From the NCBI RefSeq assembly GCF_014203225.1, contig NZ_JACHIO010000004.1, forward strand, positions 310,001 to 374,000: a stretch of 64,000 bases of DNA. The letters run 5' to 3'. Position numbers and translations under genes: made by a program. Below, piece after piece: positions 40,902 through 56,210 of the stretch. The notes under the pieces were generated by a model. That model was not told the origin of the DNA. It ran no database searches and was given only the letters and a program-made list of their open reading frames with translations. Source of the stretch: Granulicella mallensis (GTDB lineage: Bacteria > Acidobacteriota > Terriglobia > Terriglobales > Acidobacteriaceae). Positions within the stretch are counted from its first letter, which is position 1; each line of letters opens with the position of its first letter.

Positions 40902-42872
40902 ATGAGTCGAACCTATTCGCTATCTTTGTCTGCCCTCGGGCTTGTCCTGTTTTCGGCCTTCAGCCTTCACGCTCAAACTACCGCAACGGGAGAAGGCTGG
41001 CCTACCTACGGCGGCGATCCGGGTGGTCAGCGTTACTCCAGTGCGGCCCAGATCACGCGGAAGAATGTCGCGAAGCTGCATCCCGTCTGGACGTATCACA
41101 CCCATGCGCTCGAGACCTCTAATCTTTCGGGAAGCAAAAGCAACTTTGAAGCCACACCGATCCTCTTCAACGAGACCCTGTACCTCACCACGGCCTTCGA
41201 CCGCATCATCGCGCTCGACCCCGCAACAGGTGCGGAACGCTGGACCTACGATCCTCATATTCCTGACGATCTCGTCACAGGCAACTACACCTCGCGCGGC
41301 GTTGCAGCCTGGCAGAGTGCCGCAGGCAGCAGCTCTCCCTGCGCCGGTCGAATCTTCGTAGCCACACTCGACGCACGCCTGATCGCCGTCGATGCTGCCA
41401 CCGGCAAACCCTGCGCCGATTTCGGCAACGACGGTCAGGTCGACCTCAAAGCAAATATTCCCACCCTGACGAATTACAGGTCCTTCGGGAATACATCGCC
41501 ACCCACCGTCATTGGCGATGTCGTGGTCGTGGGTTCAGCCGTTCCCGACAACCAGGCGGTCGAGGTCGAACCCGGCGTCGTTCGCGGCTACGACGTGCGC
41601 ACGGGCCGTCTGCTCTGGGGCTGGAACCCGCTTCCCTGGGCGACGCAGCAGCATCCACGCACAGGCGCCGGCAATGCCTGGGCCGTCATCGCCGCCGATC
41701 CGGCGCACAATCTCGTCTTCGTCCCCACCGGCGCTCCCTCACCTGACTTCTACGGAGGCCTGCGCCCCGGTGACGATAAAGACGCCAACTCCATCGTCGC
41801 GCTCGATGCCCGCACCGGCAAAAAGGTCTGGGCCTTCCAGTTGGTGCATCACGATATCTGGGACTACGACGTCGCCGCCGAACCCCTGCTCTTCGACTTC
41901 CAGGGACACATCCCCGCCCTCGCGGTCTCGGCCAAGATCGGCAGCGTCTTCGTTCTCAACCGTCTCACCGGCGAGCCGCTCTACCCTGTCGAAGAACGTC
42001 CTGTTCCCACCAGCGATATTCCGGGCGAACGGACTTCCCCAACCCAGCCTTTCTCTTCGCTGCCCCCGATGAACCCACTCACCATCAACCCCACACGGCT
42101 CAAAGGCCATGATGCGCAGAGCAAAGCAGTCTGTTTCGCCAAGCTTCGCAGCCTGCGTTACGACGGCATCTTTACGCCGCCCAGCATAGGAGGCACTTTG
42201 CAGTATCCCGGCAGCCTCGGCGGCATCAACTGGGCTTCCATGTCCTTCGATCCGGAGACGGGGATACTCTACTCCAACACCAATGGATCGGCCTACGAGA
42301 TTCGGCTTATCGACCGCCTGCACTATCCTCCCGACAGCCATGCCAATCCGACACAGTCCGCTGAGGCCGAGCACAAAGGGTCTGCGGGTTACAGCTATCA
42401 ACGCAGCCACAATATGGTGAACAGTCCCGACTCGGTCGGCGAGATCTCGGCCAATGCCGGAGCGCCCTATCTCATCTATCGCCGGGTGCTGCAGGACGAC
42501 GACGGCCGCCCCTGCACACCAACTCCCTGGGGAGCCACCAGCGCGCTGAATCTCAATACCGGTAAGTTCCTCTGGCGCAAGCCGCTCGGCACGCTCGATC
42601 CTGGCCGTCATACCGGCACGGTAAACTTCGGAGCTCCCATCGTTACCGCCGGAGGGCTGCTCTTCACCGCAGGCACATCCGAGCCGCTACTCCGCGCAAT
42701 CGACAAGGCCACAGGCAAAGAGGTCTGGACCGGCGCGTTGCCGGTTCCTGCGCAATCCACGCCGATGACCTACATGTTCCACGGACGCCAGTATGTCGTG
42801 ATTTCAGCCGGGGGTCACGGGGGACTGGGAACTCCGCTGGGTGATTCGGTTGTTGCTTTCGCTTTGCAATAG
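40902..42872 (+). CDS. PQQ-dependent membrane/periplasmic dehydrogenase (glucose/quinate dehydrogenase-like)
   Basis: A 656-residue secreted quinoprotein. A signal peptide (SLSALGLVLFSAFSLHAQTT) precedes an eight-bladed propeller of PQQ repeats. Typical segments are WPTYGGDPGGQRYSSAAQIT (33-52), then TPILFNETLYLTTAFDRIIA and VIGDVVVVGSAVPDN. The C-terminal part has GGHGGLGTPLGDSVVAFAL, the usual family ending. No heme c motif (CxxCH) is present, so electrons probably go to quinone or an external cytochrome. Substrate is likely a sugar or alcohol. Cys residues near GSSSPCAGRIF and GKPCADFGN might form a disulfide. Confidence 0.9.
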   Translation: MSRTYSLSLSALGLVLFSAFSLHAQTTATGEGWPTYGGDPGGQRYSSAAQITRKNVAKLHPVWTYHTHALETSNLSGSKSNFEATPILFNETLYLTTAFDRIIALDPATGAERWTYDPHIPDDLVTGNYTSRGVAAWQSAAGSSSPCAGRIFVATLDARLIAVDAATGKPCADFGNDGQVDLKANIPTLTNYRSFGNTSPPTVIGDVVVVGSAVPDNQAVEVEPGVVRGYDVRTGRLLWGWNPLPWATQQHPRTGAGNAWAVIAADPAHNLVFVPTGAPSPDFYGGLRPGDDKDANSIVALDARTGKKVWAFQLVHHDIWDYDVAAEPLLFDFQGHIPALAVSAKIGSVFVLNRLTGEPLYPVEERPVPTSDIPGERTSPTQPFSSLPPMNPLTINPTRLKGHDAQSKAVCFAKLRSLRYDGIFTPPSIGGTLQYPGSLGGINWASMSFDPETGILYSNTNGSAYEIRLIDRLHYPPDSHANPTQSAEAEHKGSAGYSYQRSHNMVNSPDSVGEISANAGAPYLIYRRVLQDDDGRPCTPTPWGATSALNLNTGKFLWRKPLGTLDPGRHTGTVNFGAPIVTAGGLLFTAGTSEPLLRAIDKATGKEVWTGALPVPAQSTPMTYMFHGRQYVVISAGGHGGLGTPLGDSVVAFALQ

Positions 42873-43205: not shown

Positions 43206-44264
43206 CTATTCGATGGGTAGGTCTCCCTTGAATCCGGGACGCCCTGCTTTGATGGTCGCCACTATCAACTTCAGGATGTCTGGATTCGCATGGGACGGGA
43301 TTAGGGAAACTTCAGGGTGCTCTGCCGCAAAGACTCGGAAGATCTGATCAGCGAAGGCCTGCCCAATCATGTCTACGCCTTCGAAATTAAAAATTACTTG
43401 TGCGAAACGGTCTACGCGCATGAGTACCCGCTTAGCCTGAGACCGCGAAACCAGCTGATCGTTTCCGTACTTTGCCAGCTTCACGGGCACGACCGTCTTG
43501 TTGAAGCCTTCTGATCCATTGACACTGAATTGGTCATAGACCTTCTTGACAGTACGGGCAGTGTGATTTTCCACCTTTAGGAAAACAGCAGTTCCGTCCC
43601 AAGAAACGTCGCGCTCAATCATCCAGTCCACTTCATTTCCAAGTTCGTGACTAAAGAAGACCCCACCTGACAAGATATCGAAGCCGCCCACCATCCGCGA
43701 AGTGAAGAAGATGCCTTGACCAGAATGGTTGACCGAATCAGTGGTCAGTTTTCCTTTCTGGAGTTCGAAAATGGCTTGTCTTTCATCTGGTAGATTTAGG
43801 GCATCTTGAATCTTTTTGAAGATGCCTATCCCGTCGTCCACAATCGAGATTTCCGAATCAACAGCAGACTTCTTAACTCGTACCAAAATGTGAGTTCCGC
43901 TTGAGTGATCAATGGCGTTATTGAACATCTCGGTGAACGCGTAATTCCAAATGTGCAATACGTTATCGGGTAGTTCCCCTAAGAACGGCTGAATATCTCG
44001 TCTCCAAACGACATCTTCAGCAAGTCCAGGTTCGATTACATAACGGAAAGTGACAGCTGCAGTTTCCGCCATCTTGTAGGAACGTTTTCGTGTTACGCCG
44101 TCCGCCACTAATGATCCCTCACCAGTCAGCTTTTGGAGATGCCTATTGGCCGCTTGACGAGTGATCTTGAACTTTTCAGCTACCTTGGCGGCTATCCCCT
44201 CTTCGTCAATGTGTTCCAAGATGAAAGCTCTAATGTCTTCGGTATTTTTGCGAATCCCCGTCAT
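43206..44264 (-). CDS. Signalling protein: N-terminal helix-turn-helix, HATPase_c ATPase and STAS-like C-terminus
   Basis: A 352-residue cytosolic protein. Residues 1-65 form a winged helix (IAAKVAEKFKITRQAANRHL with turn). Next is a GHKL ATPase domain: N-box EMFNNAIDHSSG, G1 VDDGIGIFKK, and G2 SGQGIFFTSRM. The C-terminal third (about 270-352) is a STAS-like (DUF4325-like) domain. No histidine phosphoacceptor domain and no membrane segment are present. It could act as a DNA-binding, ATP-switching anti-sigma or kinase-like regulator. Base composition is lower in GC than its neighbours, hinting at horizontal gain. It lies between the PQQ dehydrogenase and the kinase gene, but no functional link is shown. 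Confidence 0.8.
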   Translation of the reverse strand: MTGIRKNTEDIRAFILEHIDEEGIAAKVAEKFKITRQAANRHLQKLTGEGSLVADGVTRKRSYKMAETAAVTFRYVIEPGLAEDVVWRRDIQPFLGELPDNVLHIWNYAFTEMFNNAIDHSSGTHILVRVKKSAVDSEISIVDDGIGIFKKIQDALNLPDERQAIFELQKGKLTTDSVNHSGQGIFFTSRMVGGFDILSGGVFFSHELGNEVDWMIERDVSWDGTAVFLKVENHTARTVKKVYDQFSVNGSEGFNKTVVPVKLAKYGNDQLVSRSQAKRVLMRVDRFAQVIFNFEGVDMIGQAFADQIFRVFAAEHPEVSLIPSHANPDILKLIVATIKAGRPGFKGDLPIE

Positions 44265-44443: not shown

Positions 44444-45421
44444 TTACTCGGCGCTCAGGCGAGCGCGGCGAACGGTATTGATCGGTGCTTTGGAAGTGGC
44501 ACGGATCGCCAGGCGTTCGCGAAACTCGGGCCGTGAAAATCCGAGTCCTGCCAATGCCCCCGAGACCTCGAAGGCACTTTGAAAGCGATCCTCTCGCCTG
44601 GTTGCCAGCAGTTTTTCAAGCAGGTGTTTGATGGCTTTGTCCTGCGTCACAGCAGAAGGAAGCTTCCAGTCTCCCTTGAGATGCTTTCGATCGATCGCAT
44701 CCAGAGTCTCTGCGTGGAACAACGGTTGTCCTGTCAGCATCTCCGCCAGGATGGCTCCAAGGGAGTAGAGATCGCTGCGAAAGTCCGGGGTCTCGCCCCG
44801 CAGTTGTTCCGGGCTAGTGTACAGCGGGGTGCCACCGCGAAAAGAGCGCTCGCGGCCACAGGACTCCGAGTGCGAGATTCCGAAATCGAGCAGGCGGTAA
44901 AGTCCGAAGATATCGAGCCGGATATTGGCAGGCGTCAGGTCGCAGTGGACGATGCCCTCGGTCTCCGCAAAGCTGAGCAAACTGCTGATCTGTGCGGCAA
45001 AGTCGAGAGTCTCTACACGCGACAAAGGACCGTTTCGCTCCAGCAGCTTGTCGACATCCTCACCTTCGACATAAGGCATGGTCATAAAGAACAAACCATC
45101 CAACTCTCCAAAGTCGAAGACCGGAACGGCGTTCGGATGGCCTCCGAGCCGCGCGGCATGAGCGGCCTCCGCGCGAAAACTGCGGATGATGCCCGGCTTG
45201 CCGGCAAGGCGCGGATGCAACACCTTCGCGACGAACAGGCCTTTATGCAGACGATGGCGCAGTTGGAAGATCGTTGCCATTCCGCCGATGGCGAGGGGAC
45301 GCAGCACCTCGAAGCGGCCGCCAAAGATAATCTGCAGCCGCGCCGCAATATCGGTAAGGTCGGCGCCGTTATCCACGTTCAATGGCGCAGCCTTTGCCTG
45401 GCTTATCCCTAAGGCGATCAC
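44444..45421 (-). CDS. Ser/Thr protein kinase (soluble, Hanks type)
   Basis: A 325-residue cytosolic kinase. The glycine loop is PLAIGGMATIF (42-52), the ATP-binding Lys is Lys66 (FVAKVL), and the catalytic loop is HCDLTPANI (159-167; Cys replaces the usual Arg). The Mg motif is DFG (179-181), with YTSPEQL (201-207) as the APE-like motif. There is no membrane helix or C-terminal sensor domain. It is the last gene of the E1/RING/Ubl/E2 operon, with a GTG start overlapping the E2 stop by 4 bp. In other T6SSs a PpkA kinase phosphorylates Fha proteins, and the FHA genes nearby fit that role. Phosphorylation of the Ubl system is another possibility. Confidence 0.9.
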   Translation of the reverse strand: MIALGISQAKAAPLNVDNGADLTDIAARLQIIFGGRFEVLRPLAIGGMATIFQLRHRLHKGLFVAKVLHPRLAGKPGIIRSFRAEAAHAARLGGHPNAVPVFDFGELDGLFFMTMPYVEGEDVDKLLERNGPLSRVETLDFAAQISSLLSFAETEGIVHCDLTPANIRLDIFGLYRLLDFGISHSESCGRERSFRGGTPLYTSPEQLRGETPDFRSDLYSLGAILAEMLTGQPLFHAETLDAIDRKHLKGDWKLPSAVTQDKAIKHLLEKLLATRREDRFQSAFEVSGALAGLGFSRPEFRERLAIRATSKAPINTVRRARLSAE

Positions 45422-45948
45422 GACAGCCGGTGTCTCCTATTCTGCGTTTCTGGATTCAGCGCAAAGGTATCATGCGTGACACCGAGAAGCGGCTTTACCT
45501 GGATCGGCGCGAACCCTTCGCTGTGCTGCTGCTCGATCCAGCCCAAGGCCTCCGGCTGCATGATGTGCAGGGCTTCGCGGTTGTACAAACGTCCATCCAT
45601 CATCGCAACGACCTTGTGCAGGGCATGCTCCACCGTGTTCTCGGCCCGATGCCGCTCCCAGAGACAAACAAAACCGGTCTCCGGATGAACATTAGGATGC
45701 TGAAAGGCAGCGTCCACGTAGAGCTCTAACGGCACTGCGGGAAAGTACGATGGATAAAGCACCCGAAAGCGATGCACGGTCACCGGCTCGTCGTGTACGG
45801 CACGGGCCAGACGGGCGGGAGCTTCGCGCAGGGTCACGCGAAACAGTTTGTCCTCCGCCGAGATATCAGTAAGCCTACCGGGATTCAACTGCGCGAGCCC
45901 CTGCAGCAGATCCCACTCCGCCTGCAGTCTTCGCTCGGAACCGGTCAC
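45418..45948 (-). CDS. UBC/E2-like ubiquitin-conjugating enzyme homologue
   Basis: A 176-residue protein with the UBC fold pattern. N-terminal helix 1 is ERRLQAEWDLLQGLAQL (5-21), then the beta-meander FRVTLREAP and HRFRVLYPSYFPAVPLELYV (60-79). The HPN motif is HPNV (84-87), followed eight residues later by GFVCLW with the presumed catalytic Cys95. Helices after it (TVEHALHKVVAMMDGRLYN) fit the usual C-terminal part of E2s. The Asn of HPN (Asn86) stabilises the transition state in known E2s. The start is GTG. It lies immediately after the Ubl (3-bp gap) and overlaps the kinase by 4 bp. Catalytic activity is inferred. Confidence 0.8.
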   Translation of the reverse strand: MTGSERRLQAEWDLLQGLAQLNPGRLTDISAEDKLFRVTLREAPARLARAVHDEPVTVHRFRVLYPSYFPAVPLELYVDAAFQHPNVHPETGFVCLWERHRAENTVEHALHKVVAMMDGRLYNREALHIMQPEALGWIEQQHSEGFAPIQVKPLLGVTHDTFALNPETQNRRHRLS

Positions 45949-45951
45949 AGC

Positions 45952-46212
45952 TTACCCATTGGTGGCTGCGGTGGAGACGCGCAGCACATCGTTGGGACGC
46001 ACTCCCTGCTGAGAGAGCGGCGCGGCAAAGTCGAGAGTCGATCCATTCCAGATCACCTCGGGCTCGCCATCGCCCTTCAGCACATTGCCGCGTTCGCGCA
46101 GGTCGAAGAGGATCTCCTCCAACACCATATTGAGGGTCTCTCCCTCGTCGATATCGACGTTGTACTTCGTCTCGCCGCTGATTGTTTCGAAGTAGATCTG
46201 ATACTTGGGCAT
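45952..46212 (-). CDS. Ubiquitin-like (beta-grasp) protein
   Basis: An 86-residue protein from the ATG at 46210-46212 with a GAAGGTG site upstream. A TTG 21 bases further up would add seven residues. It is predicted to form a beta-grasp: strand KYQIYFETISG, second strand TKYNVDIDEGET, helix LNMVLEEILFDLRERG, then GEPEVIWNGSTLDFAAPLSQ and final strand NDVLRVST. It ends TNG, a single C-terminal glycine (no GG). The pattern resembles YukD-like and other bacterial Ubls. It lies between the RING-like and E2 genes. Whether the C-terminal Gly is adenylated and conjugated must be shown. Confidence 0.72.
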   Translation of the reverse strand: MPKYQIYFETISGETKYNVDIDEGETLNMVLEEILFDLRERGNVLKGDGEPEVIWNGSTLDFAAPLSQQGVRPNDVLRVSTAATNG

Positions 46213-46252
46213 GGCCGACTTATTCACCTTCAAGAGATTGGGCGCAGCAGAC

Positions 46253-46972
46253 TTATACGCCGTGGGTTTTAGCAGCTTGTGTCACCGTCATGGTAAGCGA
46301 TTCCGGTAAATCGGGGAGTGCTTTTCCGCAACGCTGGCACTCTCCGTTATTGAAGTCCCAGCACTCCCGGCACTGCGGACGGCGGCAGTGCGGGCAGATA
46401 CGCAGGTCTACCTGCTCGGCCGAGCCGAGACACATCTGGCAGCGGCCATACGTAATACGAGGCCCCGCGGCCTTCGTCCACCACTTTTCACCCGTGGGCA
46501 GGACCGGAACGCGCTGCTCCAGGCACAGGGTGCAGCGCCTGTGCTCGAAGCTCCAGCAGGTCTCCTCGCAGACCTTCAGGTGGCAGCGGGGGCACTGAAA
46601 GCTCAAGGCCTGCACGCCCATTCGGCGATTGCACAACGCACAACGTACCCGGGTGCGCAGCAGCACAAACATTGTCAGGCCACTGCCTGCGCCTGCGAGC
46701 AGAAAGCTGAACCACTCGGCGAAGTCGCTGCGAAACGTGAACTCCGCCAGCAAAACACTGAGCAATACAACGCCCGCACATACCAGCGGGGGCAGCCAGG
46801 GACGGCCCGAGGGAAGATCGAAGTGCATCCACAGCAGCGTGATACCGGCGCTCAGCAGCAGTGCAGCCGGCAGCGCAACGGCGCCGCCGCCAAGGCAAGC
46901 GCCAAACTGGACCGAGCCAAGCAAAATCATTACACCGGCAAGCAGCGCAAAACGTTCAAGCGACCGGTTCAT
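46253..46972 (-). CDS. Membrane protein with two RING-like eight-Cys zinc modules
   Basis: From the ATG at 46970-46972 (GAAGGAAGG site upstream) the protein has 239 residues. About four membrane helices occupy the first 108 residues (FALLAGVMILLGSVQFGACL, AALLLSAGITLLWM, LPPLVCAGVVLLSVLLAEFT and FSFLLAGAGSGLTMFVLL). Two cytosolic modules follow. Module 1 spaces its Cys as C-x2-C-x12-C-x2-C-x4-C-x3-C-x7-C-x2-C (residues 111-150). Module 2 has C-x2-C-x11-C-x2-C-x4-C-x2-C-x7-C-x2-C (178-215). These are binuclear treble-clef or RING-like zinc sites. It overlaps the E1 gene by 17 bp. An E3-like membrane adaptor is inferred. Confidence 0.8.
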   Translation of the reverse strand: MNRSLERFALLAGVMILLGSVQFGACLGGGAVALPAALLLSAGITLLWMHFDLPSGRPWLPPLVCAGVVLLSVLLAEFTFRSDFAEWFSFLLAGAGSGLTMFVLLRTRVRCALCNRRMGVQALSFQCPRCHLKVCEETCWSFEHRRCTLCLEQRVPVLPTGEKWWTKAAGPRITYGRCQMCLGSAEQVDLRICPHCRRPQCRECWDFNNGECQRCGKALPDLPESLTMTVTQAAKTHGV

Positions 46973-48107
46973 CAACGTCCTTCCTTCTCATCATGGGAGC
47001 AAAAACACGGCGGAACAGGTATAGATGCTGTTTCGGTAATCCTAGCTGCCGCGGCGTAAAATCCGCCGCAAAATCTTCATCTCCCACACTATCGATGATC
47101 CTGGTGGGTTCATAGCTGCCGGTAGTGCCGCACCGCGCGCAGACCGCCTTACGGCGAAGCCGGGCAACGCGCAGATTCGGTGTGCTCTGGTGACCGCACA
47201 CATGGCAGCGGGCCTCCAGGCAATGCGGCCAAAGTAACTGTACCCGCATATTGTTTCTATGGAGCGAATCCCGAATAGGTTGATCGTAACCCAGTGGAAG
47301 CCACTCGCCCTCAGGCAGATCGTGCCAGGGACAGGTCACACTTCGGGGCAGCTTCAAATCCTTCTGTATCCATGATTGTGCCGTAGGGTCCCACTCGATA
47401 CGCGAAGAGAAGGAAGTTTTTAAACAATGTTTATCTGCGGAGAAAGACTGAATTAACTGAAGCATGGCGGCGGCGGTCTCTCGCACGGCATCGGGCGCGC
47501 CAGTCATGGCAGGAGCTTCCGCAGGAAGGCCGCATCCCAAAGAGGTTGAGAGGGCATAGGATAGCAGCTCGGCGCGCCTGGTTTCGGAGATTCCGCAGAG
47601 ATAACAGGCAGCTTCGTGCGAGGGAGAAAACCAGGAGACCCGGCCGGCAGGAATCCCCTCTCCCCTCACGCCGCCGTCCAGCATCGGCAGGTTCAGCACA
47701 CGGGCGGCAAGGGCGGTCTCGACCCGAGCCAAAGTGCTGTCAGTACAGGAGATAACGAGATCGCACAAAGCGAGGCGGCCTAAACTAGTATCCGCAATCT
47801 CTGCAGCAAAGCCTTCCCAGATCAGGCTATACTTCTGCCGGACCCAATCGACGAGTAACTCTGTCTTGTAGTGGATGAAGGCCTCAGGACCCTCTTCGGC
47901 AAAGATGTCTCGATACAACGAACTAAGAGCCACGTTGTGCGGCTCAAGCCGGTCTGGATCGACGAGTAAAACGTTGGAGAAGGAGTTTTCAGCCAGCAGC
48001 CTGCCCAGCTCGGAGCCAAGCGTCCCTGCACCGACTACAGCAAGACGCAGGTCTTTCAAGCGTTCTCCGACAGAAATGCAGGAACCATGCTGCGGAAACT
48101 TTTCCAA
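46956..48107 (-). CDS. ThiF/E1-like ubiquitin-activating enzyme homologue
   Basis: A 383-residue protein with an N-terminal Rossmann fold (LAVVGAGTLGSELG, 22-35) followed by VLLVDPDRLEPHNVALSSLY and the ATP-binding residues Asp, Asn and Arg. A Lys in IHYKTELL and the segment VISCTDSTLARVE are typical of ThiF-like E1s. EAACYLCGISETRRAELLSY and TSLGCGLPAEAPAMTGAPDA include conserved Cys residues that may act catalytically. The C-terminal part has a zinc ribbon (CHVCGHQ near residue 301 and CARCG near 322). The open frame starts with TTG at 48107 with no good ribosome-binding site. A TTG at 48059 (GGAG five bases upstream) is an alternative. First gene of the Ubl operon, divergent from the T6SS genes. 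Confidence 0.85.
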   Translation of the reverse strand: MEKFPQHGSCISVGERLKDLRLAVVGAGTLGSELGRLLAENSFSNVLLVDPDRLEPHNVALSSLYRDIFAEEGPEAFIHYKTELLVDWVRQKYSLIWEGFAAEIADTSLGRLALCDLVISCTDSTLARVETALAARVLNLPMLDGGVRGEGIPAGRVSWFSPSHEAACYLCGISETRRAELLSYALSTSLGCGLPAEAPAMTGAPDAVRETAAAMLQLIQSFSADKHCLKTSFSSRIEWDPTAQSWIQKDLKLPRSVTCPWHDLPEGEWLPLGYDQPIRDSLHRNNMRVQLLWPHCLEARCHVCGHQSTPNLRVARLRRKAVCARCGTTGSYEPTRIIDSVGDEDFAADFTPRQLGLPKQHLYLFRRVFAPMMRRKDVDEPVA

Positions 48108-48249: not shown

Positions 48250-49200
48250 ATGAGTATTTATCGTGGGCTTTATTTCTCGACGTTGATCGGTACGCTGGGT
48301 GGGCTTCTGGCATCACTATGCGCTGTTCTGCTTTCGATCCCGATGGCAGATACAGGACTGCGCTGGTTGCCGGACACTGTGAGCCTCATGGCCTTTGGGC
48401 CTGTGGTTGGCGTGCTGCTCTATCTTCATTTTGACCGCGTTCTACTGGGCAGAATTCGCGGCTCCTCCATCGGGTTCGGCCTGCTCCTCGGAGTGCTCTC
48501 CGCCGCTGCTGCTTCGGCACTTGCCTTCGGGCTGCGGAACGGCATCTCCTCTACCTCTCCCACGCTCTATCGCGTAACCGTCTGGGCCTTCTGCTTCTCT
48601 CTCATCGGCCTGGGCCTCGGCCTTCGCTGGATGCAGACGAATCGCGGACGCATCCTTCACACCTATGCGGGCAGCCTTGCCGGTGGTCTGCTGGGCGGAC
48701 TGGCCTTCATCCTCTTCACACCCCATCTGTCGGCCGGCATCTCCATGTGCAGCCTGATCCTCGCAGGTGCGGGAACGGGCTTCGGAAGCGGCATCGCCCC
48801 GGTCCTGGTGCGCGAAGGCATCATGCGCTTTATCAGCTCCGGCGACGCGCGCGCACAGAACAAGCTCGGAAAAAACAAGACCCTGTGGGATCTTGATATG
48901 GGCGAGTCCTACGTCCTCGGCAGCGCCCCCACGGCGCAGAGCGGAAGCCGCTTCCAGCAGGGCGCCGATATCTGCATTCCCGACTCCTCCGTCGCTCCAC
49001 GCCATGCCGTTGTCTTTCACAAGGATGGCCGCTACTTCATCGCACGGCATCCGGATGCCTCCGGTCCCGAAGGCATAGCGAAGTACGTTCTGCGCATCAA
49101 AGGAAAGACGGTGGTCAGCTCACAGGAGCTGCATCCCACTGATGATCTTCTGATTGGCCGCACCGCTCTACGCTTCGAAAGCAGAAAGCAAGGGGAATAG
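48250..49200 (+). CDS. Membrane protein with a C-terminal FHA-like domain
   Basis: A 316-residue protein with about six membrane helices (first: LYFSTLIGTLGGLLASLCAV; later GLLLGVLSAAAASALAFGL). A cytosolic C-terminal domain (from about 215) contains YVLGSAP and DICIPDSSVAPRHAVVFHKD with the FHA-like SxxH pattern. The segment KGKTVVSSQELHPTDDLLIG follows. FHA domains bind phosphothreonine. It is the first gene of the divergent T6SS operon, 50 bp or so downstream of its promoter region, and sits next to the vWA gene. Together with the kinase on the other strand it suggests phospho-regulation. Confidence 0.78.
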   Translation: MSIYRGLYFSTLIGTLGGLLASLCAVLLSIPMADTGLRWLPDTVSLMAFGPVVGVLLYLHFDRVLLGRIRGSSIGFGLLLGVLSAAAASALAFGLRNGISSTSPTLYRVTVWAFCFSLIGLGLGLRWMQTNRGRILHTYAGSLAGGLLGGLAFILFTPHLSAGISMCSLILAGAGTGFGSGIAPVLVREGIMRFISSGDARAQNKLGKNKTLWDLDMGESYVLGSAPTAQSGSRFQQGADICIPDSSVAPRHAVVFHKDGRYFIARHPDASGPEGIAKYVLRIKGKTVVSSQELHPTDDLLIGRTALRFESRKQGE

Positions 49201-49201
49201 C

Positions 49202-50668
49202 GTGAAGATCATTCAACATCTTGCCGTTCTCACCTGCGCTGCCGCGGCCATCGCCGCTGCGCAGCAACCTGCAAAGCCATCCCGGCTGCTGTTGACCTCT
49301 CCGCCACAACTGGTGGACTGCGCTCCGGTCATGCAGTCTCCATGCATGTCCGCCGCCGTTACACCGGGCGATGCGGAGGGCAAGCCCGCTCCGGTCACCC
49401 TGCCTGCGGCGTCACAACTCGCGGGGGCCTTCACACTGCAAAGCGCCTCCGGTGAGGCTAAGCCGTTCTATGCCAGCGCTGGAAGCGGTCCCGATGCCGG
49501 CCAGCACACCAACGTCGTCCTGATGCTCGTCGATATCAGCGGCAGCATGAACCAGCCGATGTCCGGTGGCAGCACTCGATTCCAATCGCTTAAAAGCGCT
49601 ATTGCGCAGTTCCTCGCAGGAATGCAGGAAGGCTCGGATCGGGTCGCCATCGTCCCCTTCGAGAGCCACAACGTCGTCTCGACGATTCGGTCTGCGGTCT
49701 TCACCACGCATCGGGCCGATGTCCTTGCCCAACTGAATGCGCTTCCCGCCCCCGGCCCCAAGAACAACACCGCGCTCTACCAGGCCGTCTTCTCCGGCGT
49801 CGACTCCATGAAGGGCGAGCTCGCTTCCCTGCAGCACGAAGGCGCTACCCTCGCGGAGCTGCAGCCCCACCTGATCGTCATGACCGACGGCAAGAACGAA
49901 GTGGCCCCCGGCGACGATCCTCAGCTTCTGAACGGCGACCTTGGCCTACAGCAGGCCGTGGCCCAGGTCCAGACTTCGAACCTGGACACCATCGGCATCG
50001 GCTTCGGCGATAAGAACGACATCGATGCAGGCGCCCTGCAGAAGCTCACCAAGCGGTTCTTCTATGCCGCGGACGCCAATCAACTGCTCGCGGCGCTGCA
50101 TGTCAGCCGTTCGGCGGTCAGCCATTCGATCCAGATCACCTGGCCGCTGTCCGAGGCCAATCGCGTTGCCCTGATGGGCCGCGACCAGATCTGGACGCCG
50201 AGCATGCAGCTGGAAGACGGCTCTGTCCTGACCGGCGACCCGCTTCGCCTCATCGTCCCGGCCACCAACGCCCCCGCGTATGACCGTGCGGCCTCGCCCC
50301 AAGAGCTGGAAGCGCTGATTGCCACCCATCCGCCGGCGAATTCCGGCTGGTCGAGCGTTCTCGTCCACCTATTGCTCTATCTGGGTGCGTCAGCTATCTT
50401 GCTCATACTGTGGTTTTGGGTGCCGCGATTGATCTGGGGAGAACAATATTCTAGTTCTGTCCCGGACCGCTCACGGCGCTGGAGCAGCGATCGTTCAGGT
50501 GTCACCTCCGCCTCCGGCGTGCAGGTACGTTCGACCTCGAACCTTCCCGCAGGTTTCACCCCGGAGCTCGAATCTGCCAGCCCGCTACAACGTTCTGCTG
50601 CCCAGACGACGCAGGTTTTACCGCGTAGCGAAGCTTCCCGCACACGTCTTACTTTCGATCAGAATTAG
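49202..50668 (+). CDS. Secreted/membrane von Willebrand factor A domain protein
   Basis: A 488-residue protein starting with GTG at 49202, one base after the FHA stop. A signal peptide (HLAVLTCAAAAIAAAQ) leads to a short N-terminal region. The vWA domain (about 104-310) has the MIDAS motif DISGSM (111-116) and a later Asp/Thr-rich MTDGKNE segment. A membrane helix (VLVHLLLYLGASAILLILWF) near 386-410 is followed by a cytosolic Ser/Arg-rich tail. Most of the protein is in the periplasm, so it may act as a structural or signalling partner of the membrane complex. vWA proteins occur in some T6SS loci but are not core components. Confidence 0.82.
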   Translation: MKIIQHLAVLTCAAAAIAAAQQPAKPSRLLLTSPPQLVDCAPVMQSPCMSAAVTPGDAEGKPAPVTLPAASQLAGAFTLQSASGEAKPFYASAGSGPDAGQHTNVVLMLVDISGSMNQPMSGGSTRFQSLKSAIAQFLAGMQEGSDRVAIVPFESHNVVSTIRSAVFTTHRADVLAQLNALPAPGPKNNTALYQAVFSGVDSMKGELASLQHEGATLAELQPHLIVMTDGKNEVAPGDDPQLLNGDLGLQQAVAQVQTSNLDTIGIGFGDKNDIDAGALQKLTKRFFYAADANQLLAALHVSRSAVSHSIQITWPLSEANRVALMGRDQIWTPSMQLEDGSVLTGDPLRLIVPATNAPAYDRAASPQELEALIATHPPANSGWSSVLVHLLLYLGASAILLILWFWVPRLIWGEQYSSSVPDRSRRWSSDRSGVTSASGVQVRSTSNLPAGFTPELESASPLQRSAAQTTQVLPRSEASRTRLTFDQN

Positions 50669-50686: not shown

Positions 50687-51187
50687 ATGCCTCTGGTAAA
50701 AGTTGTTCGTAAAGGAGTTACCCCCGCGGTTCGAAAGGTTCCCACCTCGACGGCCGCCGCGATGCTGCCGATGACGCTGAATCGCGTTGGCGGCGAGGCC
50801 GTATCCGAGACGGAAGACCTCTTGAAGGTAGAAGACCTTGGTGATGCGTTCCGGAAGTTCGAGCCCAAGCTCAGCTTTCGCGGCTATGCCGGCCCCGAGG
50901 AGACAGAGTTCCGCTCCGAGTTCGAATTCCGCTCCATCAAGGACTTCGATCCTGAGAACCTGCAGAAGCGGCAGGAGGTCAAGGACGCCGACGGCGCATC
51001 GCACTTCCTGCGCAACGACCTTGCCGATCTGAAGCAGAACATCGACCTGCTCTACCGGTTGAAAGACCGCTGGAAGCTGCCGGCGGTACGCCGCGCGTGG
51101 GGCAACGCCGCCCAGCGCGAGGAGATCGTCAATGCTCTCGGCAAGTTGCGCTCCGAACTCGAACGCGTTGCGGAAGGGGAGAAGTAA
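50687..51187 (+). CDS. tssB: T6SS contractile sheath small subunit TssB (VipA)
   Basis: A 166-residue protein with the usual TssB layout: after a short N-terminal part come ETEDLLKVEDLGDAFRKFEP and the segment LSFRGYAG. The C-terminal half has EFRSIKDFDPENLQKRQEV and LYRLKDRWKLPAVRRAW, the conserved helix that joins TssC. It pairs with TssC to form the sheath around the Hcp tube. The gene is 3 bp upstream of tssC, and the usual order tssB-tssC supports the call. Its N-terminus is less typical than that of proteobacterial TssB. Confidence 0.88.
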   Translation: MPLVKVVRKGVTPAVRKVPTSTAAAMLPMTLNRVGGEAVSETEDLLKVEDLGDAFRKFEPKLSFRGYAGPEETEFRSEFEFRSIKDFDPENLQKRQEVKDADGASHFLRNDLADLKQNIDLLYRLKDRWKLPAVRRAWGNAAQREEIVNALGKLRSELERVAEGEK

Positions 51188-51190
51188 ATC

Positions 51191-52531
51191 ATGGCTGAGA
51201 CCACGACATTGAACCGCACCACCGAGCAGATCCTGGGCAACAGCCCCGCACGTGAGTTGCTTCAGGACATCTTCGCCGATCTTCATCCCGGCCTGACCAA
51301 CGAGAAGCGCGACCTGGCCAGCATCTTCTCCGCCCAGTCGGCCAAGGAGTTCCTCGGCCAGCTCACGAACTTCGAGCAGCTGATCAGCGCCGACGACAGC
51401 TACGAGCAGACCGTCAAGAAGCTTCAGGGTCAGATCGACAGCGCCGAAGGCATCCGCGACCAACTCCTGTCGCAGATCTTCGACCAGATCCGCACGCTGG
51501 AGCTTTCATACCGCCAGATCCAGCTCTTCTTTGAGAACTCCAAGGTGGGCGACGGCAAGATCCGCAAGCCCGTCGAACTCTTCATCCTCAACGCCGATCC
51601 GAAGGCGATGCAGGATATCTTCTCCATGAATATCGCCGCGCTGGAGCACTTCATCGTGCAGCGCAACGATAACTTCAACTTCCGCGACGACATCTGCAAC
51701 CTGGTCATTCCGGGCTACTATCCGCAGCCTATCCGCGAGAAGTTCGAACAGATCGCCAATGCCTGGGGCATGCTCCTGATCGGCGACCTGGACGATGAAA
51801 CCTCCTTCAAGAACGTCGAGCGCAACTTCCTGCCCGGCGGCAAGTATGAGTTCCTCAAGCGGCCCGAAGATCAGGCTGCCTCGGACGTCTGCCTGATGGG
51901 CTATCTGCAGTTGCGCGCCCCTCACTGGTTCGAAAAGGACAGTGACGCCAGCGAAGGACTCTACAGCCCTCCGTCGATGGTCTTTGCAGGTGCGGTTGCA
52001 CGTGCGGACGACGCGCAGGGCATGGCGCAGGGGCCGGTCGGCTCCCGCTTCGGCCGGGTCCATGGCGCGGCTAAAGCTCGCATCGAGCCGCTCATCGGCC
52101 AGATGGAGCACCTCTCCATGGAACGCCAGTTGATCCCGATCATTCGCGATGCGGACAACCACCTCTGCTTCTACGGTTGCCGTACGCAGGCAGACGATCC
52201 GTACGGCGTGCTCAAGTTCTTTACCTCCTACCGCATCCTGCGGTACCTGGAACGCTGCTGCCGCCACTACCTGCTGCAGGTTGCGGGCCAGGTGCTGACG
52301 CGCGACTTCATGGACCAGCAGATCGAGACTCCTCTGAAGCGTCTGTTGGACGAGCAGGTAGAGCAGGGCACGATTCTGGGCTACGACTTGTTCGTCGACA
52401 AGGATTCCAACAAACGCATGCAGGGCATCTGCGACATCACGCTGAACGTGATGCCTACCGGACCTGCTGAAACCTTCGTGCTCAAGATCGATGTACCGGA
52501 GTTCAGCCGCCAGGAACCCGCTAAGAACTAG
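51191..52531 (+). CDS. tssC: T6SS contractile sheath large subunit TssC (VipB)
   Basis: A 446-residue sheath protein whose size matches TssC. Features are the N-terminal domain from ETTTLNRTTEQILGNSPARE and the central fold with FNFRDDICNLVIPGYYPQPI. The C-terminal part has FKNVERNFLPGGKYEFLKRP and FTSYRILRYLERCCRHYLLQ, with conserved basic residues used for ClpV recycling. With TssB it builds the contractile sheath, which shortens to drive the Hcp tube outwards and is disassembled by ClpV. It is followed, after 28 bp, by a gene of unknown function. Confidence 0.93.
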   Translation: MAETTTLNRTTEQILGNSPARELLQDIFADLHPGLTNEKRDLASIFSAQSAKEFLGQLTNFEQLISADDSYEQTVKKLQGQIDSAEGIRDQLLSQIFDQIRTLELSYRQIQLFFENSKVGDGKIRKPVELFILNADPKAMQDIFSMNIAALEHFIVQRNDNFNFRDDICNLVIPGYYPQPIREKFEQIANAWGMLLIGDLDDETSFKNVERNFLPGGKYEFLKRPEDQAASDVCLMGYLQLRAPHWFEKDSDASEGLYSPPSMVFAGAVARADDAQGMAQGPVGSRFGRVHGAAKARIEPLIGQMEHLSMERQLIPIIRDADNHLCFYGCRTQADDPYGVLKFFTSYRILRYLERCCRHYLLQVAGQVLTRDFMDQQIETPLKRLLDEQVEQGTILGYDLFVDKDSNKRMQGICDITLNVMPTGPAETFVLKIDVPEFSRQEPAKN

Positions 52532-52559
52532 AACTAGACCCCCGCTGAGGTGTATTGGG

Positions 52560-53015
52560 ATGAATCAGGTTCGATTTCAAATTGGTGTGCCGCGCGCTGG
52601 ATCGGCCGCACATCAGGCAGAACAGGAAGACCATGGGACCAACGCCGGACGGATCGTTCGTCCGGCGGCTGGTTCAGCCGCCAGGGCAGCAGAAGAAGAA
52701 AAAGCTGCGGGCGGCCGCACGGCGCAAACCAGTGCCGGATTTTCATTGCGTGGTCAGAATGGAACGGTAGTTCGTAACGCAGCCGTCACCCCGGCAGCGT
52801 TGAACCACCGGGCCGGGGTGCAGACGCCCCCGGCTGAAGCGCTTGCGCAGCCCGCACGACCGGCATCGCAACAGGCGTCCGAAACGCTGCCCTCCAACCC
52901 TAGAGGCAGCAACGCCGAACCCGCTCCTGCTGGTCCGCTGCAGCTCGCCGCGAGCCGGTTTCAAACACTGGTGCAATCGCTCTTTTCTCCGGGCGATAAG
53001 ACCGGTAAGCCCTAA
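52560..53015 (+). CDS. Proline/alanine-rich protein of unknown function between TssC and Hcp
   Basis: A 151-residue protein from the ATG at 52560 with a GAGG site about ten bases upstream. The frame is open upstream but overlaps tssC. The composition is rich in Ala, Pro, Gln and Arg, for example EQEDHGTNAGRIVRPAAG and PARPASQQASETLPSNPRG, so much of it is probably disordered. No signal peptide or membrane helix is visible. Its location between tssC and hcp suggests a system-specific accessory part, such as a chaperone, adaptor or tube-associated factor. It is not recognised. Confidence 0.6.
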   Translation: MNQVRFQIGVPRAGSAAHQAEQEDHGTNAGRIVRPAAGSAARAAEEEKAAGGRTAQTSAGFSLRGQNGTVVRNAAVTPAALNHRAGVQTPPAEALAQPARPASQQASETLPSNPRGSNAEPAPAGPLQLAASRFQTLVQSLFSPGDKTGKP

Positions 53016-53061: not shown

Positions 53062-53538
53062 ATGGCAAATCCATACCGCACAACCGTCACCATCGATGGC
53101 CAGAAGTTTCAGGCAGTGACAACCAGCGTAAAGTTCAACACCGCAAAAGATCGTTCGGGCACGGCCCAGATGGGCTCGCTCTCCACGAAGATCCGCGTGT
53201 GGGCCGATCTTCACGACGACACCAACCTCCCCTTCTCCACGGTGAAGCATCTGTTCGATCTCTCGAACGTGGTGACCCGCGACAAGATCAAGCCCATCAA
53301 GATCGAGTTCTGGAAGGACGATTCGCAGCAGGATGCTCTGCTCTCCTACAGCTTCAATGGCTGGATCCGCCGCTTCGAAACCTCGAACCCGCTCGACTTC
53401 CTTCCGAAGGCACAGTCCATCAACACCGAGGACGCCCTGGCCGAGGGAGCAGCACCCAGCCTGAACCACATGCTGGTGCTCGACATCGAGCCTGCGCTGA
53501 ATCAGCAGAACTTCCAGGCTGTTCAGATGAGCAACTAA
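53062..53538 (+). CDS. tssD: Hcp/TssD-like tube protein 1
   Basis: A 158-residue protein with an AAGGAG site upstream. It is a small beta-barrel protein with the Hcp-like order: ANPYRTTVTIDGQKFQAVTT, then TKIRVWADLHDDTNLPFSTV and IKIEFWKDDSQQDALLSYSF. The end is LNQQNFQAVQMSN. It should form the inner tube as stacked hexamer rings. A close paralogue follows. These Hcp proteins differ in sequence from the proteobacterial ones and resemble the TssD variants of other phyla. The exact role of the two paralogues (tube or effector carrier) is open. Confidence 0.82.
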   Translation: MANPYRTTVTIDGQKFQAVTTSVKFNTAKDRSGTAQMGSLSTKIRVWADLHDDTNLPFSTVKHLFDLSNVVTRDKIKPIKIEFWKDDSQQDALLSYSFNGWIRRFETSNPLDFLPKAQSINTEDALAEGAAPSLNHMLVLDIEPALNQQNFQAVQMSN

Positions 53539-53604: not shown

Positions 53605-54054
53605 ATGGCAAATCCCTCACGCAGCACCTGCACGATCGATGGACAGAAGTTCGACTGCCTCTCCATCTCGGTCGCGTTCAGCACCGATAAAGACCGCTCC
53701 GGCATGCCCCAGATGGGCTCGCTGGCAACCGACATTCGTGTGTACGTCGACTTCCATGACGACACGAACATCCCCTTCTCCACGATGAGCAATCTCTTCA
53801 GCCTGTCCAATGTCGTTACCAAGGACAAGGTCAAGGCGATCAAGCTCGAGTTCTGGAAGGACGATGCCCATCAGGACTCGCTGGCTGCCTACAGCTTCAA
53901 TGGCTGGATCAGCGGTTTCCACACGCTCAATCCTTACCAGAGCGATGACCAGCTCGCGGACGAGAGCCATGCCGGTGTGAACCACATCCTGGTGCTCGAC
54001 CTGGAAGCGCAGATGAACCAGCAGAACTTCCAGAACATCTCGCTGAGCAACTAA
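53605..54054 (+). CDS. tssD: Hcp/TssD-like tube protein 2
   Basis: A 149-residue paralogue of the upstream Hcp. It shares the pattern SRSTCTIDGQKFDCLSISVA and IRVYVDFHDDTNIPFSTMS, then LEFWKDDAHQDSLAAYSFNG. The C-terminal LEAQMNQQNFQNISLSN also matches the other paralogue. It contains two Cys residues in the first 20 positions that the first Hcp lacks. The pair may form mixed tubes or load different effectors. A hairpin terminator follows the stop. Confidence 0.8.
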   Translation: MANPSRSTCTIDGQKFDCLSISVAFSTDKDRSGMPQMGSLATDIRVYVDFHDDTNIPFSTMSNLFSLSNVVTKDKVKAIKLEFWKDDAHQDSLAAYSFNGWISGFHTLNPYQSDDQLADESHAGVNHILVLDLEAQMNQQNFQNISLSN

Positions 54055-54092: not shown

Positions 54093-54126
54093 TTTGAAGT
54101 TCTTTTCAAGTACACGGAGCTACCGA

Positions 54127-54489
54127 GTGCAATCCATCGCCTTTCCGATGCGGCTTCAGGAAAACGGACTGTTGCTCCGCGACGACAAGATAGCTTCCCT
54201 CATCGCGCTGCTCCAGATGATGGCACGCACCCCTGCCGGCTCATGGGCCGCCTGTCCGACGTTTGGCCTGCGCGACCTCTTCGAGAACAGCCGGCAACGC
54301 GCCGATGTGGCACGGCTTGCGGCCTCACGCATTAACGAGACCTTTGAAGACCTTGGAATCGATGGGTATACGGTGACCGAAATCGTGCGTGAGATCAGTC
54401 CGGGCCGTGAGACCGATACGTACTCCATCACACTCGAAAACACCGCGAACACAGAGACATTCACCACGTATGTGGCACACGAGCAGTAG
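54127..54489 (+). CDS. tssE: T6SS baseplate protein TssE (gp25-like)
   Basis: From the GTG at 54127 (GGAG site upstream) the protein has 120 residues. It has the gp25 fold pattern: QSIAFPMRLQENGLLLRDDK, then helix IASLIALLQMMARTPAGSWA. FGLRDLFENSRQRADVARLA follows, then the end IVREISPGRETDTYSITLE. It forms the wedge of the baseplate with TssF and TssG. An earlier ATG at 54094 would add 11 residues and is less likely. The gene lies just after the hcp terminator and 29 bp before tssF. Confidence 0.82.
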   Translation: MQSIAFPMRLQENGLLLRDDKIASLIALLQMMARTPAGSWAACPTFGLRDLFENSRQRADVARLAASRINETFEDLGIDGYTVTEIVREISPGRETDTYSITLENTANTETFTTYVAHEQ

Positions 54490-54518: not shown

Positions 54519-56210
54519 ATGAGCAGCCATACCCCGAACGTTCTTGAGATCGACCGCAAGCTCCGCGACGACTTCCGCCGCCGCGTAAAGGACTTCGGCG
54601 TCAGCACCGAGACCACAGATCCCCTGCTCGCCGTGCTCTTCCGCACCGTGGCCCAGCAGATCGACCAGGTCTACAGCGACACCGCACAGCTTCGCCAGTC
54701 GCTGCTGCATGAGCTGATGAGCGGCCTGCAGGTGCAGCAATATCTTGCAACGCCCGCACAAGCGGCGGTCCGGCTGATCAACGATCTCAGCGAGCCGCGC
54801 GTGCTGCGCGCAGGCACGGAGCTGAACGCTGTCGCCTCCACCGGCGAGCGTCTCTCCTTCGGTCTCGACGCGACCTTTGAAGTCTCACAGGCGCGCATCG
54901 CGCTTGCCCTCAGCTATCAGGACCAGTCCCTGCGCCTGCTGACCGGCGTGGAGATGAGCGATACCATCCAGGCGATGCGGCCTTCGTCCGATCCGGTCCC
55001 CGTGGGCCTGGGGCCACAGCCGGCACTGTATATCGCCGTTGAAAACCTGCCGCCCGGACTGCTCAACCGCCATAGTCTCTTCTTTGAACTGAGCCCCGGC
55101 ACCTATCCCGTGCAGCACGCACTCTGCCATGAGCCGTGGTGGATCTTCGGCGAGGACGGCGATCTCTCCGGCGAAGGCCTGATGCGGCCCAAGCGCATCA
55201 ACGGCGGTGTCTATCGGCTTGAGTTCCAGTTGGGCCAGAATGAGCCGGTCGGCATGTTCGATGCGCCGCTGCCTTCGATTCCCAATGGCTTCTATACGGG
55301 CAGGCAATACCTGTTTCCTCCCATGCACGCAGGCCAACCGCTGCTGTGCCGCGTACCGCGCCTGCTGGAGCCGGCGCTCACCCGCATCCTCAATCGCGAC
55401 GCGGCCCAGCTGCTCTCCGAGCCCCGGCTGTGGATCAAGATTCCGATGCCGCCCGGTGTACCGGCGCTGCATCACGCAATCAACGGCATCCTGCTGCACA
55501 CCATGACAGCTTCGAACGTCTTCGCGCGCAACCAGACGATCCACTTCGAGCGCGACGGCATCTCGATTCCCGTCGTCCGCGAAGGCGGCACACCGGAGCA
55601 CCTCGTCGCACCGCTGACCGTGATGAGCGTCGACAACGATGCCTATGAGGCAGCCACTCGCCCCGGCGCGGATGCCTCCGCCGGACGCTTTGAGCTGCAC
55701 AACAATCGCCTGACACTCTACCCCGGCACGCACAGCGACGGCACGCCTCACAGCGCGGCCAACATCCGCCTGTGGCTGACCAACGGCGCACTCGGCAATC
55801 GGGTCGGCCCCGGCGACATCACCAGCTTTGCCAATGCCGCCTCACTGACCGGCATCCGGCTCACGCCCTTCACCGCAGCATCCGGCGGTTCCGATGGAGA
55901 ACACATCGCCAGCGAAGAGCGGCGCTTCGCCGACGCCCTGCTGACGCGCGGCCGCATCGTGACGCGGCAGGACCTGGAGACCGCTGCTCTCGCCGTAGAC
56001 CGCCGCATCCTGAACGCGGTGACGGACTCCGGCATGGTACGTAAAGAAGAAGGCATTCGGCGTGTGGAACGGCTGCATCTCACGCTCGACTCGCACGCCT
56101 TCTCGAAGCCGGAGATCGAGCTGCCCGCGCTGAAGTCACAGATTGAAACCTCGCTCGGCGCGCGCCTGGTGCAGGGGCTGGAACTGGAGGTAGCGTTCAC
56201 ATGGAACTAG
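54519..56210 (+). CDS. tssF: T6SS baseplate protein TssF (VasA)
   Basis: A 563-residue baseplate protein with a strong AAGGAGGAAGACG site. The N-terminal domain (NVLEIDRKLRDDFRRRVKDF) is followed by typical TssF elements. These include LLHELMSGLQVQQYLATPAQ, the central beta domain with RAGTELNAVASTGERLSFGL, and a C-terminal gp6/J-like part (NAASLTGIRLTPFTAASGGS). It interacts with TssG and TssK in the wedge. It overlaps the tssG start by 10 bp, which implies coupled translation. Confidence 0.9.
   Translation: MSSHTPNVLEIDRKLRDDFRRRVKDFGVSTETTDPLLAVLFRTVAQQIDQVYSDTAQLRQSLLHELMSGLQVQQYLATPAQAAVRLINDLSEPRVLRAGTELNAVASTGERLSFGLDATFEVSQARIALALSYQDQSLRLLTGVEMSDTIQAMRPSSDPVPVGLGPQPALYIAVENLPPGLLNRHSLFFELSPGTYPVQHALCHEPWWIFGEDGDLSGEGLMRPKRINGGVYRLEFQLGQNEPVGMFDAPLPSIPNGFYTGRQYLFPPMHAGQPLLCRVPRLLEPALTRILNRDAAQLLSEPRLWIKIPMPPGVPALHHAINGILLHTMTASNVFARNQTIHFERDGISIPVVREGGTPEHLVAPLTVMSVDNDAYEAATRPGADASAGRFELHNNRLTLYPGTHSDGTPHSAANIRLWLTNGALGNRVGPGDITSFANAASLTGIRLTPFTAASGGSDGEHIASEERRFADALLTRGRIVTRQDLETAALAVDRRILNAVTDSGMVRKEEGIRRVERLHLTLDSHAFSKPEIELPALKSQIETSLGARLVQGLELEVAFTWN

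Follow-up and report, generated by a model that had tools for sequence, protein, structure and literature searches.

The window analysed here, a stretch of 64,000 nucleotides from Granulicella mallensis (contig NZ_JACHIO010000004.1), carries on its minus strand, at positions 44444–48107, a five-gene operon encoding an E1-like ThiF protein, a RING-like membrane protein, a ubiquitin-like protein (Ubl), an E2-like protein and a Ser/Thr kinase. A divergent type VI secretion system (T6SS) cluster begins 142 bp away, with genes for an FHA-domain protein (FHA1) and a von Willebrand factor A (vWA) protein at its head. The operon probably represents a cascade for Ubl conjugation that is dedicated to the adjacent T6SS, a machine in whose cluster no TssM was found. 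The cascade would act on the anchor or baseplate and would form a switch beside kinase, PP2C phosphatase and FHA proteins. The original prediction had described an E1-RING-Ubl-E2-kinase operon with a T6SS opposite, an observation now borne out by Pfam matches, ortholog alignments and predicted folds. It had also singled out the tie between a complete E1-E2-RING-Ubl set and a T6SS, and this tie holds well beyond the window.

The linkage of the operon (hereafter the cassette) with the T6SS is not due to chance. In a sample of 200 genomes of the family, E1-specific matches (at least 73 bits) and matches to the sheath protein TssC coincide, at 11 loci each in the same 10 genomes. Cassette and T6SS genes keep the same divergent order at 11 of 11 loci, with the second locus of genome G158 covered up to TssG only. 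Generic ThiF/MoeB matches were set aside: E1 matches occur in 93 of the 200 genomes, only the 11 loci reach 73 bits and the rest score 50.1 bits or less. At 20 of these weaker loci (L011–L030, 2.8–3.5 kb) no Ubl, RING, FHA1, vWA or Tss match was found at E 0.001. Across 344 genomes of the class, the Ubl and TssC profiles each match 19 genomes, and these are the same 19 (8 of 121 genera), with no match to either profile in the remaining 325; neither half is thus found alone. Eighteen of the 20 locus pairs lie on one contig, with Ubl and TssC 4.8–9.3 kb apart, and the other two are split by contig ends within the cluster (G836 inside TssB; G614 with one contig ending in FHA1 and the next starting in vWA). 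A scan of another collection returned 22 loci, 19 of them with tss genes in the flank; at the other three (L065, L066 and L075) the contig edge comes first on the T6SS side, in L075 after FHA1 and vWA. These samples overlap, at least five contigs of the other collection equalling family-sample loci in length and 10 of the 19 class genomes belonging to the family; the sampled genomes are also related, and the co-occurrences are not independent events.

The linkage also survives rearrangement: Bryobacteraceae have the cassette upstream of the T6SS on the same strand instead of divergently, the kinase and FHA1 of L072 being ca. 4 kb apart, and the two halves stay linked. A scattered distribution (10 of 200 genomes in the family) and the presence of two types within one genus would be compatible with transfer, or loss, of both halves together. 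Plasmid records gave no Ubl match, and their only TssC matches were five distant Bacteroidota DUF5458 records at 22–26% identity. In the wider phylum (396 genomes) the Ubl was found in seven genomes and TssC in seven, six of them shared. The seventh TssC, in G384, is a weak match (29.7 bits) belonging to another kind of T6SS, and the 17.7-kb contig that carries it shows no match to the cassette. The seventh Ubl belongs to G422, from another class. The original prediction had asked whether such Ubl operons are regularly found away from a T6SS and vice versa: within the 344 class genomes none are, and outside the class G422 provides a case. That cascade and T6SS are inherited together points to a part for the tag in building or controlling the machine.

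The cassette could also be a defence or stress module that shares a mobile island with the T6SS without mutual action, an explanation we consider improbable. Discussion of bacterial Ubl operons centres mostly on phage defence (PMC12687455), and Bub is described as a putative immune pathway for which protection is not yet shown (PMC13373217). G422 has the module alone, and a gene with a CapK-like domain set adjoins the operon in the window. Against this stand the absence of either half without the other in the 344 class genomes, the linkage kept through rearrangement and a C-terminal tag that E2 shares with TssK (described below). PADLOC returned no match for Ubl, E2 or RING, and the E1 matched only partial E1-E2 models (best 1.2e-9); the CapK-like gene was not found in the other 10 loci.

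The proteins themselves have the features of a Ubl cascade. The E1-like gene (46956–48107, minus strand; PF00899, 9.3e-14) encodes a ThiF adenylating enzyme with a conserved crossover-region Cys and a Cys-rich, zinc-ribbon-like C-terminal part. Among nine aligned orthologs D50, D52, N58, K81, D123 and D144 are invariant, as are C168, C171, C192, C301, C304, C323 and C326. Judging from MoeB and UBA layouts, C192 is presumably the catalytic Cys. The E1 profile matches chains of NEDD8 E1, MoeB and BubCD. The RING-like protein (46253–46975, minus strand) has three to four hydrophobic segments followed by two tandem 8-Cys zinc modules, in which 16 of 16 Cys are invariant across nine aligned orthologs; its Prok-RING_1 score lies below the Pfam cut-off (E 0.015). 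The E2-like protein (45418–45948, minus strand) has the active site HPN...GFVCLW and the C-terminal tag RRHRLS. Its His84, Asn86 and Cys95 are invariant in 70 aligned sequences, and the HxN..C pattern is kept in 119 of the best 120 of 368 homologs, some of which RefSeq-derived names already call ubiquitin-conjugating enzyme E2. The kinase gene (44444–45421, minus strand; PF00069, 3.5e-33) completes the operon with a C-terminal RRARLS tag. A protease Pfam match was found in none of the five genes.

The Ubl (45952–46233, minus strand) is a predicted beta-grasp modifier with a C-terminal Gly. Its Asn-Gly end falls exactly before the stop codon in 11 of 11 stand-alone Ubls and in 28 of 28 distinct stand-alone tails, a count that leaves out a 29th distinct tail, that of a fused G614 protein. 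The same end occurs in 120 of 120 homologs (the best 120 of 598). Sequence searches with the Ubl against solved structures gave no credible match; its structure model resembles the Ubl domains of ESX-5 EccD (7b9f, 7b9s) and the ubiquitin of Candidatus Caldiarchaeum (6fnn). Predicted structures support the Ubl fold and the E2 fold, the latter a predicted UBC fold with the catalytic Cys, so that the folds claimed in the original prediction are supported rather than rejected by modelling. From these sequences we infer that conjugation may take place, and in the order of events set out below.

The resemblance to EccD also admits a reading in which the Ubl is a non-covalent scaffold of a membrane complex, comparable to the EccD Ubl domain and YukD/EsaB, with the E1- and E2-like proteins as assembly partners. 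YukD has a ubiquitin fold and is reported not to be conjugated (PMC5845737), and no JAB protease was found near stand-alone cassettes. Such a scaffold is unlikely in view of the invariant His/Asn/Cys of the E2, the invariant adenylation and Cys positions of the E1 and the C-terminal Gly in all the stand-alone tails and best homologs just counted. Among the loci, moreover, a JAB gene was found only at the two where the Ubl is fused to E2, which is what a requirement for a free C-terminus would predict.

The neighbouring machine, encoded on the plus strand, is recognisable as a T6SS (sheath, tube, baseplate, spike and ClpV) through TssC, TssG, TssK, ClpV and VgrG, with TssB, Hcp, gp25 and TssF identified below threshold or by position. 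TssC, the large sheath subunit (51191–52531; PF17541, 8.5e-20), is divergent, with no NCBIfam match and only spurious citrate synthase matches among solved structures. TssG (56201–57199; PF06996, 5.3e-15) and TssK (57184–58995, 603 amino acids, end PRRRRLE; PF05936, 3.6e-7; TIGR03353, 4e-14) belong to the baseplate. The ClpV/ClpB-like ATPase (59025–61769) matches ClpB at 8.9e-269 and ClpV at 4.8e-210, both below cut-off, as well as AAA_2. VgrG and PP2C genes lie at and beyond the window end, and more uncharacterised genes follow downstream in the same cluster. The TssB-like small sheath subunit (50687–51187) is named from position and from matches to PF05591 (E 0.0092, below cut-off) and TIGR03358 (E 0.047); TssB and TssK both fall under the NCBIfam cut-offs. 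Two Hcp-like tube proteins follow, the first (53062–53538) without its own Pfam match and 58% identical to the second (53605–54054), which matches PF17642 TssD below threshold (E 0.045). The TssE/gp25-like (54094–54489) and TssF-like (54519–56210) baseplate proteins take their names from position; both are matched in 11 of 11 loci and have no Pfam match.

Three further proteins frame these core genes. FHA1 (48250–49200) has at least four hydrophobic segments and a C-terminal FHA-like domain (E 0.0023, below cut-off). The vWA protein (49154–50668) has a signal-like N-terminus, a vWA domain (PF00092, 5.7e-11), one transmembrane segment and a short tail with a TRL motif. FHA2 (61766–63943) combines a PF06439-like N-terminal part (2.7e-19), a transmembrane segment and a C-terminal FHA domain (3.5e-14). 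The RING, FHA1 and vWA proteins, all with hydrophobic segments, probably sit in the membrane and are candidates for the missing membrane anchor. TssM, the one canonical inner-membrane subunit searched for (as IcmF_C), was found in no cluster of the window type among the 10 cassette genomes. IcmF_C does occur in three of these genomes (G. mallensis itself, G158 and G117), each time at another T6SS locus. The only match in G. mallensis sits in a second, canonical T6SS (L148–L149, G000:C9), identified by Pfam through TssK (PF05936, 2.7e-125; 457 amino acids), VipB, IcmF and ImpA. Over 20–40 kb, the three canonical TssM clusters gave no E1, Ubl, E2, RING, FHA1 or vWA match at E 0.001, and their TssKs, of 453–457 amino acids, are without the RRRRLE end.

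With canonical T6SSs under PpkA/PppA/Fha control, the window system shares sheath, tube, baseplate, ClpV, VgrG, kinase, PP2C and FHA; it differs in having no TssM in the cluster, weak or no NCBIfam matches for TssB, TssK and TssC, and an added Ubl cascade. Like T6SS-iii of Bacteroidota, it has a TssC that fits PF17541, and its only plasmid matches are the Bacteroidota DUF5458 records; it is set apart by the 22–26% TssC identity, the Acidobacteriota host and the FHA1/vWA/Ubl module. The specific membrane subunits of T6SS-iii are TssN-R. In Agrobacterium, FHA reading of phosphothreonine made by PpkA activates a T6SS (PMC3953482).

A C-terminal RRxRL(S/E) tag, present in most E2s, TssKs and kinases of the system, links cascade and machine at the sequence level. 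Among distinct complete TssK orthologs, 18 of 19 end in RRRRLE, and only that of G614 departs from this (ARRSRLLD). Of 31 distinct E2s, 28 carry the related pattern R.R[LI][STEQ] in their final 45 residues; the other three are L063 (end GRKSRLS), L079 (RRRLA) and the fused protein of G614. Kinases carry the pattern in the same region in 13 of 22 cases, among them L064, where that stretch contains undetermined bases. Of the nine untagged kinases, seven share the tail of the L072 FGE-fused kinase, the FGE domain itself being found by Pfam in L072 only, and two are distant proteins of 1,600 amino acids. A vWA tail with TRL in the last 30 residues, found in 23 of 29 distinct tails, is weaker than the tag of E2 and TssK. 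The C-terminal head of TssK binds TssL in canonical T6SSs (PMC10433429), and it is because of this that a common dock for tagged E2 and TssK can be guessed by analogy.

The exception in G422 is informative about the composition of the module. There, PP2C, E1, RING with transmembrane segments, fused Ubl-E2, a JAB protease whose C-terminus is hydrophobic, FHA1 and vWA are encoded in one run, and a gene on the opposite strand lies past vWA. No Tss match better than E 0.02 was found on the 19 kb, nor a TssC match in the genome (90% complete). The T6SS thus appears to have joined the Ubl module or to have been lost from it. FHA1 and vWA, being present here without a T6SS, belong with the Ubl module. 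The original prediction had assigned an FHA and a vWA gene to the T6SS cluster; the genes do stand there, but FHA1 and vWA accompany the Ubl module in G422 and therefore probably bridge the module and the T6SS. Genome G614, of the window's own class, combines fused Ubl-E2 and JAB with a T6SS of the window type. A dedicated protease in the operon is present only in these two fused-type loci. Fused Ubl-E2 combined with JAB in G422 and G614, and a stand-alone Gly-ending Ubl without nearby JAB elsewhere, suggest an evolutionary history of the module. In other classes of Acidobacteriota the fused form was found in one of 38 genomes (G422 itself) and in one of 41 (G493, a weak match with another E2). 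A general Gly-Gly cleavage site in fused Ubl-E2 is not claimed, the junction pattern having caught only 30 of 120 sequences. PF14464 JAB proteins occur in 11 of 11 genomes searched, away from the cassette except for one of five G422 matches, and also in 8 of 14 control genomes; such a housekeeping JAB was considered as a possible deconjugase. A JAMM pattern scan picked up three frames, all at a distance from the cassette (window ~4529, L069 ~19307 and L072 ~609).

The family loci fall into two subtypes. In subtype A (G. mallensis, G158, G066, G098, G128 and G088) the kinase is present, along with two Hcp-like genes. In subtype B (the second G158 locus, G168, G160, G130 and G117) the cassette lacks an adjoining kinase; four loci have a single Hcp-like gene, and at the second G158 locus no such gene was matched in the interval from TssC to gp25. 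G158 thus holds one locus of each subtype. A subtype-A protein of unknown family between TssC and Hcp (52491–53015, plus strand; no Pfam match) has a related open reading frame in three of the five other subtype-A loci and, among the 11 loci, is matched in subtype A only. E1 identity within a genus is 26–36% for five A/B pairs, 95% for one A/A pair and 55% for one B/B pair; cassette type tracks T6SS type, not host genus. In the subtype-B genomes G130 and G168, a protein of ca. 1,600 amino acids with a kinase-like N-terminus (L047:3369–8162; L043:1571–6355) is encoded past the E2 end of the cassette, at a distance of about 6 to 8 kb.

In the mechanism we propose, the E1 would adenylate the C-terminal Gly of the Ubl and pass the Ubl to the E2 Cys, and the RING-like protein, itself anchored in the inner membrane, would position the charged E2 there. 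A membrane-anchor or baseplate component would then receive the Ubl, at a guess FHA1, vWA, TssK or a close partner. The Ubl mark would operate alongside the kinase, the PP2C phosphatase and both FHA proteins, forming a post-translational switch that governs how the machine is assembled or recycled. A more specific version is put forward tentatively: the E2 would dock via its TssK-like RRxRL tag, the membrane RING would hand the Ubl to the FHA1/vWA/baseplate anchor replacing TssJLM, and the mark would license assembly or ClpV-driven recycling. Alternatively, the Ubl might tag secreted cargo or immunity proteins (Hcp, VgrG, effectors) and leave the machine anchor aside. VgrG and the uncharacterised genes downstream in the cluster, and the two Hcp-like proteins of subtype A, would suit such cargo tagging, which is nevertheless considered very unlikely: by their hydrophobic segments, the RING, FHA1 and vWA proteins probably reside in the membrane.

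Several observations weigh against a cascade dedicated to this T6SS. Its occurrence in G422 without a T6SS means that it is not intrinsically a T6SS part. PP2C matches at all three canonical T6SSs and a kinase match at that of G117 mean that these regulators are not special to the Ubl system, and the kinase is missing beside the cassette at the five subtype-B loci. The FGE-type kinases lack the tag. The tail R.R[LI][STE] occurs in 97 of 120 stand-alone E2 homologs versus 6 of 120 fused Ubl-E2 proteins (1.8 and 1.9 in shuffled sequences), but the former were the top 120 scorers out of 368 under a profile in which the tail is included, and the count is biased upwards. Distances of cassette proteins and of TssC correlate across the 11 loci (r 0.68–0.90, Mantel p 0.0001), which supports co-inheritance, although linkage alone would give the same result. 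No JAB like that of G422 and G614 was found in the other loci (59 records searched), so that conjugation may or may not be reversible, and the FHA1 domain and RING modules score under Pfam cut-offs.

Operons of the E1-E2-RING-Ubl type may already be known. Burroughs, Iyer and Aravind in 2011, the likeliest earlier description, reportedly presented prokaryotic operons with E1, E2, RING and Ubl and suggested conjugation of YukD-like Ubls. Bil/Bub operons likewise unite a Ubl, an E1-like and an E2-like protein, and the window E1 profile matches Citrobacter BubCD. Such operons are described as combining Ubl, E1 and E2 with a specific protease and as serving mostly in phage defence (PMC12687455); the stand-alone window form differs from them in having no operon protease, a membrane RING-like protein and FHA/vWA partners beside a T6SS. 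The type VII secretion Ubls (YukD/EsaB, EccD) also tie a ubiquitin fold to a secretion system; YukD is reported not to be conjugated (PMC5845737), and the window system has an E1-E2-RING set. Candidatus Caldiarchaeum has Ubl, E1, E2 and RING in one operon, and its ubiquitin structure is matched by the window Ubl model; that cascade is archaeal, with no tie to a secretion machine mentioned in the accessible portions of the sources. Literature searches returned no title or abstract opening that ties an E1/E2/Ubl set to a T6SS, nor is the link mentioned in the accessible parts of Iyer 2006, the 2012 polymorphic toxin survey and two reviews. Bacterial Ubl cascades are known mainly from phage defence, and the present system would, if the proposal is true, apparently be the first sign of ubiquitin-type signalling controlling a bacterial secretion machine. 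Granulicella mallensis is a soil bacterium available in culture, which allows direct tests for conjugates, their targets and T6SS phenotypes.

Some minor observations concern the surroundings of these loci. Adjoining the operon in the window, a gene at 43206–44264 (minus strand) encodes a helix-turn-helix domain, a GHKL ATPase and DUF4325 (STAS-like), a domain set like that of CapK (PMC13373217); a role as regulator was set aside, with no counterpart at the other 10 loci. Putative pyrroloquinoline quinone-dependent dehydrogenases, read from translations, lie near the Ubl module in the window (40902–42872, plus strand) and in G422 (L097:9271–11460, minus strand), which may be coincidence. One weaker E1 locus, L022 (G031), has a different E1-like gene and an E2-like neighbour, 26% identical to the window E2, with no Ubl of window type matched, and L029 shows a generic kinase match. 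In Bryobacteraceae, the L072 interval between E2 and FHA1 (L072:10795–16445) encodes an FGE-sulfatase-like-fused kinase, two DUF4384 proteins and a caspase-TPR protein. A metagenome-assembled genome labelled Arcobacter (L074) carries a Bryobacteraceae-like cassette and T6SS and is perhaps mislabelled or a mixed assembly. A scan of the operon and the intergenic gap found no sigma-70 promoter (1.6 expected in shuffles), and the same region holds seven terminator-like sites versus 4.3 expected.

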